Shown piece by piece: positions 50,150 through 58,193 of a stretch of 64,000 nucleotides of DNA. The notes under the pieces were generated by a model. The model had not been told where the DNA came from. It did not search any database and saw only the letters and a program-made list of their open reading frames with translations. How positions within the stretch are numbered: position 1 is the first letter of the stretch; each line of letters opens with the position of its first letter. The stretch is from Sulfurimonas sp. (GTDB lineage: Bacteria; Campylobacterota; Campylobacteria; Campylobacterales; Sulfurimonadaceae), in assembly GCA_016744115.1 (NCBI GenBank), contig JADGEZ010000003.1:1-64000 (forward strand). The letters are read 5' to 3'. A program made the position numbers and the translations under genes.

Positions 50150-51373
50150 TCAGTCTGTACAATTACAAGGTAAACTATTTTCAAGATATTCTTGATTATT
50201 ACCATTTTTAATTATTTCATAAGACATTTTACCATTGACACCAAAAAAATTGATAAACGGATTTTCTTCTTTAGTTTTTATATCTCTATTCTCTGCTACT
50301 AAATCTCTTTGATATTTTTTTTCTATATCAATCCACCAATCAATATTTTCAGGGTTTTTATCATCTGTAGTTGTTTCTATCTTTGATAATTTATTTCCAC
50401 CCTTCATAAAACAGTAAACACAATTACCAAGACTTCCATCATACGGTAATCCCAAATCCCATTCTTTATTATCCCAATAATACTTAATGTCTTTTTGTAT
50501 CATATTAAACTCTACTAATGGGGCATAAACATGCTCATTATTTTCTCTTAAATATGCTACTTCTATATTATCATTTAGTTTAGAATCAATTCTTTTTTTC
50601 ATCTTTTCTAGCCTCATTGGTTCATCTGCTCTAAATCCAATAAAACTACAAAACTCTATCTTTTTTTTATGTATAAAAATTTCTTTATTTTTTAAATTAA
50701 CTCTTGTAAAATCTTTAAAATTCTGTTCTGGTCTAAATAGTGATCTTGTTAAACAATACTCTTTTTTATTCTGATAAATATCATAAGGAACTTTACCTCC
50801 ATATTTTTGATGTTTTTTTGTATATAAAATATCTTTATCTATTCTAGTTATTTTTCCATAATGTCCTAATCTTGATATATAATCTAAATTTGAAAACCAA
50901 TCATTTAAAAATTCATAAGTAACATCCATTTTCATTTTTTTAGTACAAGTTCTACCACTCATAAGACTAGGTAAATACATCTGCCAAGAAATAAGTTCTT
51001 CAAAGACTTCTCCTTTATGATGATAACCATTAGGATTATCCTCAGAATAAGGTTTTTCATTTACTAATCTATATGCTTGAAATCTATCATAAACACCATT
51101 TTTACAATCTTCAAATGTTTGAAACTCTGTAAGAAAAAAAGGTATATTATATTTTTCTTCACATCTTTTTTTACATTCAATGACAAAATTATAAGTTTTA
51201 CTGTGTTCTGCTGATGTATTGTTAAATATAATAACATCACCACGACTTGCTTTTAACATATTATTTTTAAGCATAGAAAAGAGTAAAGCACCACTAGAAC
51301 GACCACCTGAAAATTTTACAATATGTGGTATATTGGAGTGATAATCTTTAACATAATAATGCTCTAACTTCAT
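50150..51373 (-). CDS. PAPS reductase-like PP-loop protein with Cys cluster (cassette gene 4)
   Basis: IVKFSGGRSSGALLF PP-loop; RTCTKKMKMDV, GNCVYCF and LPCNC cysteine motifs. Confidence 0.85.
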   Translation of the reverse strand: MKLEHYYVKDYHSNIPHIVKFSGGRSSGALLFSMLKNNMLKASRGDVIIFNNTSAEHSKTYNFVIECKKRCEEKYNIPFFLTEFQTFEDCKNGVYDRFQAYRLVNEKPYSEDNPNGYHHKGEVFEELISWQMYLPSLMSGRTCTKKMKMDVTYEFLNDWFSNLDYISRLGHYGKITRIDKDILYTKKHQKYGGKVPYDIYQNKKEYCLTRSLFRPEQNFKDFTRVNLKNKEIFIHKKKIEFCSFIGFRADEPMRLEKMKKRIDSKLNDNIEVAYLRENNEHVYAPLVEFNMIQKDIKYYWDNKEWDLGLPYDGSLGNCVYCFMKGGNKLSKIETTTDDKNPENIDWWIDIEKKYQRDLVAENRDIKTKEENPFINFFGVNGKMSYEIIKNGNNQEYLENSLPCNCTD

Positions 51374-52203
51374 GCAACCAAACTTTCTATTATCTTTCTA
51401 TTATCTTCAATATCCAAAGAACCCATTGCTCTCCATGATGATTCAATCCCAATCATTCGTATAATTTCTTTAAAATCTTTTGTATTAGTTACTTCTTTTT
51501 CAATTATATATTTAAATAGTCCATCTCTAATATTTTTATCTGCAATAACTGTTAATTTTGAACTCATTCTCATTATTAACTCATTATAGTTTGTTGGGTT
51601 AGAGTTAAAATATTCATAAATAGTTTTTTCGTCAATTTTTGCTTTTTTGCTAATCTCTTTAGCAAGATAAATTTTCCACCAAGCTATAGCAAATGGAATA
51701 TCTTGATAAATACCTTTTTTACCTCGTTCTTGAATTGCACCAAACATATGCCTAAGTATTGCTCTACATGTATTAAATAATTGTTTATCATTTCCTTGTT
51801 CCGATAATCTTAATGCTTCAATAATATTATTTTTACCATTTTTACTATTTTCTACATAGGCTAGATAATATGGTTGAATAATATCATTTTGAATTGATTG
51901 AATAGTTATAGAAATCCATTTTAATGGATTTGAAGCATCAATAGTAGAAAAATTATTATTTTTTAGTACTTCCCATAAAGTAGGATAATGATATAAATAG
52001 TGAAGTTGTTGAAATTCATTTTCTGATAATTTTTCATTAAAATTAGAAAAATTAACTTCATTAAGTAATTGTTCTTTATCAAAATAAGTCAATAGATACT
52101 CTATAAAAGTATCTTTATCTAATGCTGATTCCAATAATAAAATAGATTCTACTCTATTTTTAGTAACCTTTTTTAATCTTTGTAGTCCATTATTCATTAT
52201 CAT
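51370..52203 (-). CDS. Uncharacterised helical protein (cassette gene 3)
   Basis: 277 aa, RAILRHMFGAIQERGKKGIYQDIPFAIAWWK; start overlaps gene 2 by 14 bp, stop overlaps gene 4 by 4 bp (ATGA). Confidence 0.8.
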   Translation of the reverse strand: MIMNNGLQRLKKVTKNRVESILLLESALDKDTFIEYLLTYFDKEQLLNEVNFSNFNEKLSENEFQQLHYLYHYPTLWEVLKNNNFSTIDASNPLKWISITIQSIQNDIIQPYYLAYVENSKNGKNNIIEALRLSEQGNDKQLFNTCRAILRHMFGAIQERGKKGIYQDIPFAIAWWKIYLAKEISKKAKIDEKTIYEYFNSNPTNYNELIMRMSSKLTVIADKNIRDGLFKYIIEKEVTNTKDFKEIIRMIGIESSWRAMGSLDIEDNRKIIESLVA

Positions 52204-53026
52204 TCTCCAACTTAATATTATGTTTTAAAAAATAACAAGCTACTTGATTAGGATTAAATTCATCATCTTCCCAAGTTTTAATATCTTTATTTTTTAATTC
52301 TAGTTTTATGCCTTTAAAATTTGTCAATTCACTATCATCATCTTTATATTCCTTAGCTAAGTCCATAAATCCAAGACATAGCATATGAATAACTATACTT
52401 CTAAGATGAGAATCATTTGTTGGAAGTTGTTTAATTTTATCATATAGATTAGATTCTACACTTGCTATAAATCTTCCACCTTCTTCTGAAATAACTGATA
52501 CATCAAAGCCATATTTAACCGTACCGTTATTGTCTTTTTGAATTGTTAATAAATCACTTGCTGTATTTTCTAATTCTCTCCATCCTGCTCTAGCTAATAT
52601 AGCACCTTTTTTAAGTTCTATTGTCGCACCATCCCAAAACTCATCTAATCCCATTTTAGAAGAATTTAAAATAACTTCTTTATCATCACCTGTATATATA
52701 ATAGCAGAGAAAAAACTTTGTGTTTCAAATGTTGTCTTTAATTGTATCTTTTGCTTAATATGTGTTGATGAAATCAGTTGTAAAATATTATCAGTAGTTT
52801 CTCTATACATTGAAGATTTTAATACAATTGTTGTAATAAACTTTGCTTCATTGTTTTGTAGTAATTGTGATATTAAATTATTACTAGTTAGTTTATGCTC
52901 AAAAATTATATCATTTGACTTGCTATCACTATCGACTTGATTTACTTCATAAATAACTTCATTAATATAATCGAATTTATCTTCTTCCAATACTGGAAAT
53001 GAATACGAACTTGTTATTTGATTCAT
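52190..53026 (-). CDS. Uncharacterised protein (cassette gene 2)
   Basis: 278 aa, GLDEFWDGATIELKKGAILARAGW; start overlaps gene 1 stop by 4 bp (ATGA). Confidence 0.8.
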   Translation of the reverse strand: MNQITSSYSFPVLEEDKFDYINEVIYEVNQVDSDSKSNDIIFEHKLTSNNLISQLLQNNEAKFITTIVLKSSMYRETTDNILQLISSTHIKQKIQLKTTFETQSFFSAIIYTGDDKEVILNSSKMGLDEFWDGATIELKKGAILARAGWRELENTASDLLTIQKDNNGTVKYGFDVSVISEEGGRFIASVESNLYDKIKQLPTNDSHLRSIVIHMLCLGFMDLAKEYKDDDSELTNFKGIKLELKNKDIKTWEDDEFNPNQVACYFLKHNIKLENDNE

Positions 53027-54873
53027 TTTTTATCCTTATTTGAAGTACTATTTAAAAACTCATAATCAATTATATAGTCTCCTATAATATTTGTATCATA
53101 ATCTATACTTAAATCTACAAGAGTATTCTTATTAACTTTTCCAATATCAATAGTATCATCATGAATAATTTTGCATTCTATTCCGTTGTTTAATGCTTTA
53201 TTGATTTTTAATCTTGGAGTAATCCCAACACTATCACAAGTTGGGTCTGTTCCGTCTTCAAGTCTCAAATAAAGGAGTAAATTTGAAGCATTTTTATCAG
53301 TAGCAAATCTTAATTTTGCTTCTTGTTTTTTAGCATTATGAAAAGAACTAAATTTTCCTACTTCAAATTGATTTCCAACTCTTTGTTTTGTATCACTTTT
53401 ATTCTTTTTTCCCTTGCCTTTATCAGATAAAGGTATATCACTATCGGGGACTACTCTTTTTTTTCTAGGTATTTTTTTTGTTTGTGTAGATTTTCTTTTA
53501 TTTTGTTGTTTTGATTTTGCATCACCAACCATACTAATAGATAAATTTGGAATATCATAATCAAATGAATCATTGTCATTTTTTTCAATAATATTCGATA
53601 AAAATTCTTTTATCTCTCTTAAAGAAGTTGATAATTTTTCTCTTTTAACTTTACCACTTTTATCATTACTAAATCTTTTTAATCTAATATCATTATGTAA
53701 ATTACTCTCTGCCTCTCTAATAAGTGTTGAAAAACCAGTTCTTTTCTGTGCTAAAATTAAGGCATTAAAGGCTTTACTTGATGGAAAGTTACCTTTGTTT
53801 AATGGACTAGGTATGGATTCATCTATCCACATACCATTTCTACAAAGTGCTAATTTTGTATCGCTTTGCGATAATTGATAATAAATTTTAACTTCATCTT
53901 CTAAAGTTTTAATAGTTTGTTTTTTACCATGGTTAAGCATATCATAAAATCGTTTTGCAGTATTGAAGTTTGGAGTACTTTTCTCGTCTTGTGTTTTAAT
54001 GAATATATTATTTAAAGTTTCATAATTTATATTTACTATATTGTCTTTAGTGATAATTTCAACTTCTAAATTATTTTCAAAAATCGCAACATAAAAATTT
54101 CTAACAATTGAACTTGAAATCAAGCTTGTAACTTGATCAATATCTTCTTCATTACCAAAAAAATTAAATCCAATAATTCCAACAACTGCTCCACTTTTTT
54201 CAATAAAATCTAGTTGATTATCTATAATATTTGGTATATTTTCATTTTTATAAAAAATATCATTTTCAATTTCAATTGAGTTTTGATTTGTAAGTAAAAA
54301 ACCTGTTCCAAGTTTTAGTTCATCATTTTGTTTATGTGTTCTAAGTAGTGCCTGTCCTGAACATAATTTTGTTCCATCTTCAAATTTACCACCATATAAT
54401 ACATATCTTAAATTTGAGATATTAAATGCTGAAAAATGTCCATTTCCATATGAACCACCAGAATCATTAGGATTATTTTTATTGCTTATACCATCACTCA
54501 GTATTGCCACTAATTTATCTTGAGTAAACCCTAGTCCATTATCTATGATATATAAAATGGGTATTTTATCAATTTCTAATTGTTCATCAATAACATTTAG
54601 AATACCTTGCTCTTTTGTAGATAAGTCTTCTACTTTTATAGACTGTAATGCTTTTTCATACTCTATTATTCCAGGTATTTGATTTTTATCTATATAATCT
54701 ATAATAAATTTTACTTTTGCAGTATCTCTATTAGCTTCATTTATAGCTGAATCATAAGAGTTTTGTAAAATCTCTCGTATGATTGTGGAACTATCTTTAT
54801 CATTAGAAGCTGATGTAGAAGCATTAGTAAAACCACTTTGGCTTATTGCTGAACTAAATATTAGTTTATTCAT
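53023..54873 (-). CDS. GHKL/Hsp90-like ATPase (cassette gene 1)
   Basis: IIREILQNSYDSA (N box), YIIDNGLGFTQDKL (G1), GGSYGNGHFSAFN (G2); basic linker and beta-rich C-terminal domain. Confidence 0.85.
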   Translation of the reverse strand: MNKLIFSSAISQSGFTNASTSASNDKDSSTIIREILQNSYDSAINEANRDTAKVKFIIDYIDKNQIPGIIEYEKALQSIKVEDLSTKEQGILNVIDEQLEIDKIPILYIIDNGLGFTQDKLVAILSDGISNKNNPNDSGGSYGNGHFSAFNISNLRYVLYGGKFEDGTKLCSGQALLRTHKQNDELKLGTGFLLTNQNSIEIENDIFYKNENIPNIIDNQLDFIEKSGAVVGIIGFNFFGNEEDIDQVTSLISSSIVRNFYVAIFENNLEVEIITKDNIVNINYETLNNIFIKTQDEKSTPNFNTAKRFYDMLNHGKKQTIKTLEDEVKIYYQLSQSDTKLALCRNGMWIDESIPSPLNKGNFPSSKAFNALILAQKRTGFSTLIREAESNLHNDIRLKRFSNDKSGKVKREKLSTSLREIKEFLSNIIEKNDNDSFDYDIPNLSISMVGDAKSKQQNKRKSTQTKKIPRKKRVVPDSDIPLSDKGKGKKNKSDTKQRVGNQFEVGKFSSFHNAKKQEAKLRFATDKNASNLLLYLRLEDGTDPTCDSVGITPRLKINKALNNGIECKIIHDDTIDIGKVNKNTLVDLSIDYDTNIIGDYIIDYEFLNSTSNKDKK

Positions 54874-54912: not shown

Positions 54913-56103
54913 TCAATTCTTATTCCCTAATGCTTTGTCTAATCTTTGAATTATATCTAACATTGTAGCTGAAGATACTGCAAAATTCAGTCTCATAAAA
55001 CCGCTTCCCTCTTTTGAAAAACTGATTCCAGCATTGAGTCCAAGTTTTGCTTCATGGATAAAAAATTCTCTCAAACTTTTATCTCTCATCCCCATACCTC
55101 GACAATCTAGCCAGGCTAAGTATGTAGCTTCGATGGGTGTTATTTTTATTTTTTGAGGATAACGCTCACATAGTTTTTTTAAATCATTATAATTTTGCAT
55201 TAAATGAATTTTTAAATCTTCTAACCATTCTTTACCATGCGTATAGGCTGATTCAAATGCTACATGAGATAAGGTACTTCCTTGTGCAAAATGATTTTTT
55301 TCATACACCGTTTGAAACCTTTGTTTTAAATCTTTGTTTGGTATAGCTATAGAACTTATAGCAAAACCTGCCATGTTAAATGTTTTTCCTACTCCTATTG
55401 CGGTGATGGTAATATCTCTCGCCTTTTGAGAAAGGGAAGCAAAAGGGATGTGTATGTTTGGCTCATATACTAAATCAGAATGTATCTCATCTGCAAATAC
55501 TACAATATCATTTTTTAAACAAATTTCAAGTATCTCTAAGAGTTCTTTTTTTCTCCAAACTCTTCCAACAGGATTATGAGGAGAACAAAGAAGTAAAAGT
55601 TTTGTATCTTTATCAATCTTTGCTTTTAAGTCTTCTATATCAAAGGTATAATTTCCCTCTTGAGTGAGCTTAAGAGGGTTCTTTAATACTTTTCTTTTGC
55701 TCTGGCTTACTGAATGAAAAAAAGGTGGATATACAGGAGTTTGAACAATTATCTTATCTCCTATATTACTAAAAGCCTCAATACATACACTCATGCTAGC
55801 AACTACCGAATGAGAATACAAAATATCTTTAAGCTCAAATGATATACCATGCTCTTTTTTCATCCACTGTATTTGAGCCATAAAAGCACTCTTAGGAACT
55901 TCTTCATAACCCATAACAGGATGTTTTAAACGCTTCTTAACAGCCTCTAAAATAAAATCAGGTGTATCTATATCCATATCTGCAACCCATACAGGTATTA
56001 AATCTTTTGTTTTAAATAACTTTTCTCTTAAGGCGTATTTTTCAGCATTAGTATTTTCCCTTGAGGCTGATTCTCTAAAGAGATATTTTATTTTTTCTTC
56101 CAA
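54913..56103 (-). CDS. PLP-dependent C-S lyase (PatB/MalY-like), candidate OvoB
   Basis: VWVADMDIDTPDFILEAVKKRLKHPVMGYE, ADEIHSDLVY, GVGKTFNMAGFAISS; overlaps the ovoA-like gene. Confidence 0.85.
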   Translation of the reverse strand: MEEKIKYLFRESASRENTNAEKYALREKLFKTKDLIPVWVADMDIDTPDFILEAVKKRLKHPVMGYEEVPKSAFMAQIQWMKKEHGISFELKDILYSHSVVASMSVCIEAFSNIGDKIIVQTPVYPPFFHSVSQSKRKVLKNPLKLTQEGNYTFDIEDLKAKIDKDTKLLLLCSPHNPVGRVWRKKELLEILEICLKNDIVVFADEIHSDLVYEPNIHIPFASLSQKARDITITAIGVGKTFNMAGFAISSIAIPNKDLKQRFQTVYEKNHFAQGSTLSHVAFESAYTHGKEWLEDLKIHLMQNYNDLKKLCERYPQKIKITPIEATYLAWLDCRGMGMRDKSLREFFIHEAKLGLNAGISFSKEGSGFMRLNFAVSSATMLDIIQRLDKALGNKN

Positions 56104-58193
56104 ACACTTAACTCAGAGATAGTATGTTGATATTTTCTAGCAGTCTCTTTGATCACGAACTCTAAATCTTGAGTATGGATTAATTCAAACTCCTCTGATA
56201 GGATATTTTTTAATGAATCTAGTGTTTTAATCTCTTTACCATTATCATCCTTATATCCCCCGAGCCAAAACTCTTTTTTTGTTGAGCTTTCTTGCCAAGT
56301 ATAAGGCGAAGTTATCACTAAAATACCATCATCATTTAATCTCTCTCCTACGGTATCTAAAAAGAGTAGTGGCTGGTACAATCTATCTATAAGATTTGTT
56401 GCTATTATTAAGTCATAGGAGTTAAAATTTTGCTTCATATTACAAGCATCTCCCTGCCAAAAAGAGACTTTTTTTTTCAAATTTTCGTAGCCTAAATCTT
56501 TTATTGTAATTTTTTTACTGCTACTTAGATTACCCTCGTCAAGCGTGGAAAAGGCTACATATCCATCCGTTTGTAGTTTTGAACCTACTTGCACAAAACG
56601 AGCTGAAAAATCAATCCCCTCAACCTTATCAAACTCTTTTGCTAACTCAAATGTAGCTCTTCCTGTTGCACAGCCTAAGTCTAATGCTTTTGTTTTATTC
56701 TTAGTAAATTTTGACGCAATTTTTGCACAAGAAATTGCGAAATTTTCTACTCCAAAATGAGTGTCTCCATATTGAAATTCACAATATTGCGATACTAATT
56801 CATCTGTTTCATATATATCCATTCTTTCCTCTTTATTATCTTGTGTTACTACATATCTAAAACCTGCATTTTGGTGAAAATGCTTTCTAAAAGCATATCG
56901 TGACTTTTTCATAATCAAGTTACCACTACTAGCCCATGATGAACCTAGTATAAGGGCATGTTCATTATCAAATGTTGGTACTGTAAAATCATCATAAGCT
57001 GGATGTATTTTAAATCCTTCAAATGGTTTCATAGTGCTTCGAGACCACTGCCAAACATTCCCTACAACATCAAACAATTCATTGCCATCTTTAGCATAAA
57101 AACTATAAGTATCTACGGGTGTAGCACTCATATATTTTAAATTTAAGTTAGCGTCAGAATCTTTTACTATGTCTTTAATCCCAACATATTGGCATAATGC
57201 TTCATATTCATACTCACTTGGAAGTGTATAACTCAAAGAATTTTTTTGGCTTTTATACCTACAAAATGCTTCTGCCTCTAAGGCATTTACGTCTACAGGA
57301 AAACTTAAAGGGAGTTCAATCTTTGAACTAAGTGTTCTATAAAAATATTGAGAGTTTTTTTTCGACCAAAATATAGGATGTTTAGCCTTTGAGTATTTTA
57401 AAAAATCTAGTCCCTCTTTTGACCAAAATTCATCTTTTTCATATCCACCATCTAGTACAAACTCTAAATACTCTTCATTTGAAACCAAATATTTTGATGC
57501 TTGAAAACTTTTTACTTTTTGCGATGAGCTTCCATATTCATTGTCCCAGGCATAGTAATCATCATCTTTTTCTTTACCTAGAGTAACATTTATTTGTGGG
57601 ATTTTCACCAACTTATTTTTAGGTGCATCAGAATAATAATCACAAATTTTAAAAGCTTCAACATTTTGTATGAATTTTAAGGGCATTTGACGATGTAAAA
57701 CCGAGGATGTTTCAAGGTGAATCCTCTCATGCTCAATACCCATCAATATAATCCACATATCAGAGTCAAAAGTAATTGGCAGACTCAGAGGAAGCTCTTC
57801 TATAAGTTTTAAAACTAGTTTTTTTACTTTATCACGATATTTTTTTGTTTCATCAACACTAGGCCAAGTATAATGACTAGATTCAACATCATCCCAAGTC
57901 ATCTCATCCACGCCAACTGCAAAGATAGATTCATAATCTGGATTAATTCTTTCTTCAATGATTTTCATATTGATTAATTTATTTACATAAAATGTTGCAG
58001 TATGTCCAAAATAAAATATCATTGGATGACGAGTTAGCTCACTCTTTTTATAAAAAACTGTATCATCTTTTAAGAGTTCAAACATTTTTTCATAAAGTTC
58101 ATAAGTATTTAAAAAATATTCTTTAATTTCAAGGCGTTTATTTTCTATATTTTCTCCCCTAAGCGTAATGGGATGCATGCTTAATTTATTCAA
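56088..58193 (-). CDS. ovoA: OvoA-like 5-histidylcysteine sulfoxide synthase with C-terminal methyltransferase
   Basis: DinB-like FYFGHTATFYVNKL and EHERIHLETSSVLHRQMP, FGE-sulfatase domain (FDVVGNVWQWSRSTMKPFEGF, HFHQNAGFRYV), then SAM MTase (ALDLGCATGRATFELA). Confidence 0.85.
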   Translation of the reverse strand: MNKLSMHPITLRGENIENKRLEIKEYFLNTYELYEKMFELLKDDTVFYKKSELTRHPMIFYFGHTATFYVNKLINMKIIEERINPDYESIFAVGVDEMTWDDVESSHYTWPSVDETKKYRDKVKKLVLKLIEELPLSLPITFDSDMWIILMGIEHERIHLETSSVLHRQMPLKFIQNVEAFKICDYYSDAPKNKLVKIPQINVTLGKEKDDDYYAWDNEYGSSSQKVKSFQASKYLVSNEEYLEFVLDGGYEKDEFWSKEGLDFLKYSKAKHPIFWSKKNSQYFYRTLSSKIELPLSFPVDVNALEAEAFCRYKSQKNSLSYTLPSEYEYEALCQYVGIKDIVKDSDANLNLKYMSATPVDTYSFYAKDGNELFDVVGNVWQWSRSTMKPFEGFKIHPAYDDFTVPTFDNEHALILGSSWASSGNLIMKKSRYAFRKHFHQNAGFRYVVTQDNKEERMDIYETDELVSQYCEFQYGDTHFGVENFAISCAKIASKFTKNKTKALDLGCATGRATFELAKEFDKVEGIDFSARFVQVGSKLQTDGYVAFSTLDEGNLSSSKKITIKDLGYENLKKKVSFWQGDACNMKQNFNSYDLIIATNLIDRLYQPLLFLDTVGERLNDDGILVITSPYTWQESSTKKEFWLGGYKDDNGKEIKTLDSLKNILSEEFELIHTQDLEFVIKETARKYQHTISELSVWKKK

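Follow-up and report, generated by a model that had tools for sequence, protein, structure and literature searches.

A mobile four-gene cassette of Sulfurimonas combining a PDC-M33-type triad with an SspD-like PP-loop protein, a candidate for DNA phosphorothioation

What is the function of a compact set of four genes that couples an enzyme resembling PAPS reductases to a GHKL ATPase and to two new proteins? The question is raised by positions 50150 to 54873 (minus strand) of the window analysed here, a stretch of 64,000 nucleotides of Sulfurimonas sp. (assembly GCA_016744115.1, contig JADGEZ010000003.1, positions 1 to 64,000). A previous sequence-only reading of this DNA, in which no databases were searched, had suggested a module for defence or nucleic-acid modification that includes a PP-loop protein of the DndC/SspD type. 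This suggestion is well supported by profile comparison, by an adjacent SspA/DndA-like cysteine desulfurase and by phosphorothioation (PT)-associated neighbours in relatives of the cassette. We consider that the cassette is probably a horizontally moving immune module, most likely inserting sulfur into the DNA backbone. It would most likely represent a third PT-type DNA-modification architecture, built on the gene triad designated PDC-M33, whose GHKL ATPase would act with two new proteins in place of DndD-DndE or SspC-SspB.

Gene set, spread and mobility of the cassette

The GHKL gene (gene 1; 53023..54873; 616 amino acids) is followed by gene 2 or B (52190..53026; 278 amino acids), gene 3 or C (51370..52203; 277 amino acids) and the PP-loop gene (gene 4; 50150..51373; 407 amino acids), all on the minus strand. 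Consecutive open reading frames of the window overlap by 4, 14 and 4 bases, and both coordinates and overlaps were exactly those of the sequence-only reading. The G+C content of the cassette genes is 24–26% versus 30–32% in the flanking genes. The four-gene arrangement is far beyond chance, because the identical four genes recur across scattered taxa.

Thirty-six further genomes of the genus lack the GHKL gene. Among 397 genomes of the phylum a full copy was found in four, and a strong PP-loop match in those four only (hypergeometric p ~1e-9). The other three Campylobacterota copies keep the gene order of the window but lie at different places: one follows an integrase and AbiE-like genes, another separates rimP from ribD, and the third has alaS on one side and exbB/tolQ-like genes on the other (gene names assigned by eye). 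In the window the cassette is flanked by genes for an aminotransferase and a YhbP-like protein; in 28 of the 29 congeners inspected only a short spacer separates these two genes, the cassette being absent. Such an empty site rules out the housekeeping role at a conserved syntenic position that had been considered at the outset.

The PP-loop profile was then scanned against 84,980 species genomes, which yielded 80 loci, and the four genes proved to be co-conserved. A full PP-loop gene was present in 74 loci, 66 of which carried the GHKL gene (36 of the 37 loci whose PP-loop gene has long flanks on either side), and all four genes were found in 59 of the 66 GHKL-positive loci. Two gene orders occur, GHKL-B-C-PP or PP-(desulfurase)-GHKL-B-C. 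On the PP-loop tree the order changed 4–5 times, at least three changes being forced by strongly supported branches, versus 17.8 for shuffled labels. Pairwise distance matrices of the four proteins were correlated with r of 0.87–0.92 (permutation maxima 0.13–0.28), shared species history contributing to these values. The loci span at least 13 phyla, which are intermixed on the tree, and therefore transfer is frequent. All these data establish the gene set as a real, co-conserved and mobile cassette with a recurrent gene neighbourhood.

Some copies have particular features. Two divergent GHKL-B-C triads surround one PP-loop gene in L095 and L096, their GHKL proteins being 32–39% identical; in L095 (6087-15059), L096 (421-9179) and L059 (1036-10236) two triads lie around or next to a single PP-loop gene, and the corresponding proteins are only 22–39% identical. 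In a Nautiliaceae metagenome-assembled genome (MAG) the cassette (L029, 6717-11149) sits inside a housekeeping operon, with rimP and ribD as its neighbours, and its PP-loop protein lacks the C-terminal CNC motif described below. Another Campylobacterota genome (L018 and L022, 8232-8726, minus strand) holds a truncated GHKL fragment beside a glycosyltransferase-like gene, an apparent remnant of a lost cassette. In a Sulfurimonas MAG (L102, 1-3069) a PP-loop gene, seen as an 84% identical fragment, precedes genes for a Fic-like PDC-S04/SoFic protein, a type II restriction enzyme and a C5 methyltransferase, forming a defence island. Finally, the flanking genes at 54913-58193 (minus strand) of the window, for an EgtB-like sulfoxide synthase/methyltransferase and a PatB-type C-S lyase, resemble an ovothiol pair (OvoA-like and OvoB-like).

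Regarding the hosts, 16 of the 80 loci come from a single MAG study of the sponge Ircinia (binomial p 3e-21, study membership being read from isolate names). Many of the remaining loci, in AqS, Entotheonella, Cymbastela, SB06xx and other bin series, are presumably sponge-derived as well, judging in part from their names. Most relatives, the majority of them MAGs, appear to be sponge symbionts of many phyla. The Ircinia study comprises 426 dereplicated MAGs (PMC9531527), and sponge metagenomes have been described as enriched in PT genes "even though not functionally complete" (Horn et al., 2016, PMC5099237); the new cassette may supply part of the PT function missing there.

The PP-loop protein and its sulfur-related neighbours

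Gene 4 gave a weak match to Pfam PAPS_reduct (3.6e-4) and a strong one to phrog_424, a family of phage PAPS-reductase-like proteins (3e-27). With hhalign the PP-loop family reached 97–98% probability against SspD (E 3e-11 to 6e-14), the alignment spanning the PP-loop, R-x-C-T and CxxCF motifs, and a more distant 80% against DndC. By these profiles the protein is a distant relative of SspD and DndC, which is a new finding. The family is nevertheless distinct from both: at 407 amino acids it is ~120–130 residues longer than SspD (279–285), the PADLOC SspD model matched neither the window protein nor any other protein of the window genome, and the DndC model (TIGR03183) matched none of the new PP-loop proteins in 24 carrier genomes and nothing in the window genome or the three other Campylobacterota carriers. 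A PDB sequence search with the protein returned chance matches only. The window protein is 34–77% identical to the PP-loop proteins of its relatives, and in viral contigs the profile found four distant matches (28–31% identical) with no GHKL-B-C beside them.

The motifs that had been read from the sequence (SGGRSSG, RTCT, CVYC and CNC in this protein, and the GHKL boxes in gene 1) are all there and are conserved across homologues. In the PP-loop motif SGGRSSG (residues 22–28; 51290..51310) S22, G24 and S27 occur in 100% of 77 sequences. C143 of RTCT (50945..50947) is present in 77/77 and aligns to RWCT of SspD and DndC, and the C318-x-x-C321 pair of CVYCF (50411..50422), likewise in 77/77, aligns to the CTFCF of SspD (GCTFCF). 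In the C-terminal C403-x-C405 (CNC; 50159..50167) the two cysteines are conserved in 92 and 97% of sequences, respectively, and the C-terminus of SspD has a comparable CLxC pair. C318, C321, C403 and C405 are a possible set of Fe-S ligands.

The neighbourhood of the relatives also points to sulfur. In 31 of the 80 loci the PP-loop gene has a cysteine desulfurase gene as its neighbour, which in most cases immediately follows it and which occurs with either gene order; a representative of this desulfurase matches SspA (PADLOC, 4e-141) and DndA (~1e-141). Within the fetched flanks, 16 loci carry at least one PT-associated gene, family membership of non-representatives being assigned by BLAST clustering. 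These are a PT-associated methyltransferase (TIGR04096; 7 loci; 565 bits, cut-off 150), PbeA (6 loci; 1e-148), a PT-DNA-binding HNH restriction endonuclease (NF045808; 5 loci; 262 bits, cut-off 180), DndB-like DGQHR proteins (5 loci, those of L100 and L062 recognised by motif only) and SspE (one locus, L064; full-length, 1113 bits). L100 and L048 had also been considered as SspE carriers, and a direct scan ruled them out. GmrSD-type DUF262 proteins were found in 16 loci.

This association is clearest in L064. There the PT-HNH gene abuts a GHKL-B-C-PP-desulfurase cassette which is followed by SspE, and no SspBCD was seen near this SspE. L058 carries both PbeA and the PT methyltransferase. Neither DndC nor SspD was matched in the genomes of L064, L058, L089 and L100, and therefore the new cassette is the sole detected candidate modifier in them. 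As a separate observation, a protein of 670–800 amino acids with sigma-70 region 4 and an RNA polymerase alpha-CTD-like domain is encoded between the cassette and PbeA (L044 17874-19940, with orthologues in L046, L049, L058 and L061); it is possibly a transcription-related sensor within the PT locus.

The GHKL-B-C triad and the function it may serve

Gene 1 matches PADLOC PDC-M33A (5e-36, residues 14–507). Its matches to HATPase_c_3 (0.34) and to the sacsin-type ATP-binding domain (8.6e-4) are weak, and the nearest PDB profile is HtpG/Hsp90 (0.017). Conservation of its boxes was scored on 7 sequences, a plasmid PDC-M33A among them: E34, Q37, N38, S39 and D41 are invariant in the N box EILQNSYD (E34-D41; 54751..54774, minus strand), D111 and G115 in the G1 box DNGLGF (111–116; 54526..54543, minus strand), and G140, S141, G143 and G145 in the G2 box GSYGNGH (140–146; 54436..54456, minus strand), which lies within GGSYGNGH.

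Genes 2 and 3, which had been thought to match no family, can both be placed. Gene 2 matches PDC-M33B (1.2e-10, residues 5–254). Gene 3 itself gave no direct match in the family libraries, PDC-M33C included, and its homologue in L033 matches DUF6339 (PF19866; 3.3e-7). PDC-M33C is a DUF6339 protein, as a Ligilactobacillus plasmid relative confirmed, and DUF6339 annotates the plasmid PDC-M33C genes; hhalign of the gene 3 family gave 8% against PDC-M33C, only two sequences of the latter being compared. The AlphaFold model of protein B (pLDDT 92) has beta domains at the N-terminus and helices at the C-terminus, and Foldseek related it to generic immunoglobulin-like beta sandwiches alone (TMq <0.3), which is uninformative. 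Protein C is modelled as almost entirely helical (pLDDT 95), and no match to it was found in a fold search of PDB and BFVD. The idea that no named system has this gene set thus stands in part: genes 1 and 2 belong to PDC-M33, already catalogued in PADLOC as an unproven phage-defence candidate and including the DUF6339 family, and our literature search found no paper naming PDC-M33.

PDC-M33 triads also exist without the PP-loop gene. In a few cases, on plasmids of Ligilactobacillus, Lactococcus, Deinococcus and Arthrobacter, they adjoin methylase restriction-modification genes or nucleases. The Lactococcus record stops shortly past the GHKL gene, and neither B nor C was seen in it. Plasmids L010, L012 and L013 hold PDC-M33 genes beside restriction-modification genes, and on the Arthrobacter plasmid a Shedu nuclease gene lies downstream.

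What the triad could do beside a sulfur enzyme is suggested by the known PT systems, in which a desulfurase and a PP-loop enzyme are combined with an ATPase and a partner for DNA recognition, either DndD (ABC) with DndE or SspC (AAA+) with SspB (Rakesh, Aravind and Krishnan, PMC10853773). Because of this pairing logic, GHKL-B-C can be regarded as a candidate third ATPase/recognition core. Judging from sequence, the chemistry, the division of labour and the defence against phages would be as follows. A cysteine desulfurase (dedicated in many relatives, the housekeeping enzyme in the window genome) would hand persulfide sulfur to the PP-loop protein, which would activate a DNA phosphate with ATP and insert the sulfur, as is thought for SspD/DndC. 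The GHKL ATPase, as an ATP-gated dimeric clamp, may locate and open the target site together with B and C, the three standing in for DndD-DndE or SspC-SspB. The sulfur mark would identify DNA as self, and invading DNA would be attacked or nicked by separate nucleases that read PT (PbeA-type, PT-binding HNH, SspE and perhaps GmrSD-type). The genomic context of the cassette (SoFic/PDC-S04, AbiE, type II restriction-modification, integrase) is consistent with anti-phage defence.

We tentatively extend this proposal, as a possibility rather than an expectation, to a general role: GHKL-B-C could be a third DNA-scanning core for chemical self-marking, beside the ABC-type DndDE and the AAA+-type SspBC, pairing here with a sulfur-transfer enzyme and, in other PDC-M33 loci, with DNA methylases, and one PP-loop enzyme could serve two triads of different specificity. 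A third ATPase/recognition core is supported in that triads without the PP-loop gene sit near methylase restriction-modification genes, that the triad persists beside dedicated PT readers and that L095 and L096 have two triads per PP-loop gene. Such paired divergent triads suggest two specificities using one sulfur enzyme and fit exchangeable target modules. A DndDE core pairing alternatively with cytosine methylases has been described (PMC10853773). The text of that work makes no mention of HATPase, MORC, HSP90, gyrase or DUF6339, and our literature search for phosphorothioate together with GHKL gave nothing relevant.

Several observations weigh against PT modification by the cassette. DndC occurs in 7 of 20 sponge carriers, and therefore some PT-reader genes could serve Dnd; DndD (TIGR03185) was above cut-off in 2 of these 20, elsewhere in the genome. 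Since most relatives are MAGs, the apparent absence of DndC and SspD could reflect incompleteness. In the window and the three other Campylobacterota carriers, whose whole genomes were searched, no desulfurase or PT-restriction gene was seen adjoining the cassette, so the function of the window copy is deduced from its relatives. A distant desulfurase (37–38% identical; 37% in the window genome) lies elsewhere in three of these four carriers, and unlinked GmrSD_N proteins occur in three of the four, the window genome having two such proteins. Loss of the dedicated desulfurase, with IscS substituting, is known for Dnd systems (PMC10853773; PMC3519819). In addition, the triad is not intrinsically sulfur-related, because it occurs without the PP-loop gene beside restriction-modification genes, and family libraries and fold searches revealed no recognisable nickase, nuclease or DNA-binding fold in B or C.

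This last point leaves room for reversed roles, a reading that we consider rather unlikely. The PP-loop protein and desulfurase, perhaps with an unrecognised nickase, would mark host DNA, and GHKL-B-C would be the restriction or abortive effector acting on unmarked DNA. The plasmid triads next to methylases or nucleases agree with it, as does the lack of another restriction gene adjacent to the window copy, and a role in controlling nucleases has been proposed for GHKL domains elsewhere among defence proteins, for example in VcSduA of the Shedu type (PMC12137116). However, known PT modification requires an ATPase and a DNA-binding partner besides the PP-loop enzyme (PMC10853773), for which the triad is the only constant candidate; moreover, the triad is retained where dedicated PT-restriction genes exist, and a nuclease motif or fold is precisely what was not recognised in B or C.

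It is improbable that the sulfur is put on a DNA base or another phosphate position instead of the standard PT linkage, in a system still giving self-marking immunity. The length and separate branch of the PP-loop family and its lack of DndC matches in the 24 carrier genomes would suit such a chemistry, but the neighbouring genes are annotated specifically for reading or accompanying backbone PT. Still less probable is that the PP-loop protein thiolates tRNA, other RNA or a small metabolite, whose loss the triad would sense. tRNA thiolation, too, follows the logic of joining a PP-loop protein and a cysteine desulfurase; against this reading, the profiles point to SspD/DndC, the neighbours are DNA-phosphorothioation genes and the gene set is sporadic and mobile. 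Sulfate assimilation by a housekeeping PAPS reductase with accessory genes was rejected despite the assigned Pfam domain, as the match to the E. coli CysH control profile was just 4.8%, the cassette is missing from the 36 congeners, it has clean empty sites, and its three partner genes are not sulfate-assimilation genes.

Comparison with known systems

The cassette shares parts with several known systems. In BrxP of BREX type 4 and in phrog_424 proteins a PP-loop/PAPS-reductase-like domain likewise occurs in the context of defence or of mobile DNA, but the BrxP match was just 9e-4 over ~65 residues in one relative. With PDC-M33 the cassette shares proteins A and B, the DUF6339 family of gene 3 and an identical gene order; it differs in its PP-loop gene, absent from the plasmid loci near methylase genes, and in the lack of a direct PDC-M33C match for gene 3 of the window. 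If our proposal is true, the orphan PDC-M33/DUF6339 families gain a function, and protein C, without a known fold, enters immunity.

With SspABCD-SspE the cassette shares the PP-loop enzyme with SGG(R/K), R-x-C-T, CxxCF and a terminal cysteine pair and, among relatives, the SspA-like desulfurase (31 of 80), the full-length SspE of L064 and the GmrSD/DUF262 proteins (16 loci). It differs by a GHKL instead of an AAA+ ATPase and by a longer PP-loop protein, which the SspD model missed in the window genome. SspB and SspC were not matched by PADLOC among the window genes nor among the matches listed (25 families) for 123 flank proteins of relatives, and an SspA-like desulfurase is absent from the window operon.

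The differences from DndABCDE lie in GHKL versus the ABC ATPase DndD, in B and C versus the ribbon-helix-helix DndE and in a PP-loop protein without a DndC model match; with the family libraries no DndD or DndE match was obtained for GHKL, B or C of the window. The two are alike in the logic of PP-loop enzyme, ATPase and DNA-binding partner and, in relatives, in the DndA-like desulfurase, DndB-like DGQHR proteins, PT-associated methyltransferase and PbeA-type helicase. The sulfur-transfer enzyme would thus be, if our proposal is true, a plug-in for unrelated DNA-handling motors, here of the GHKL (Hsp90/MutL-like) type, and the cassette would stand as a third machinery beside Dnd and Ssp, the two for bacterial DNA PT that the literature searched describes.

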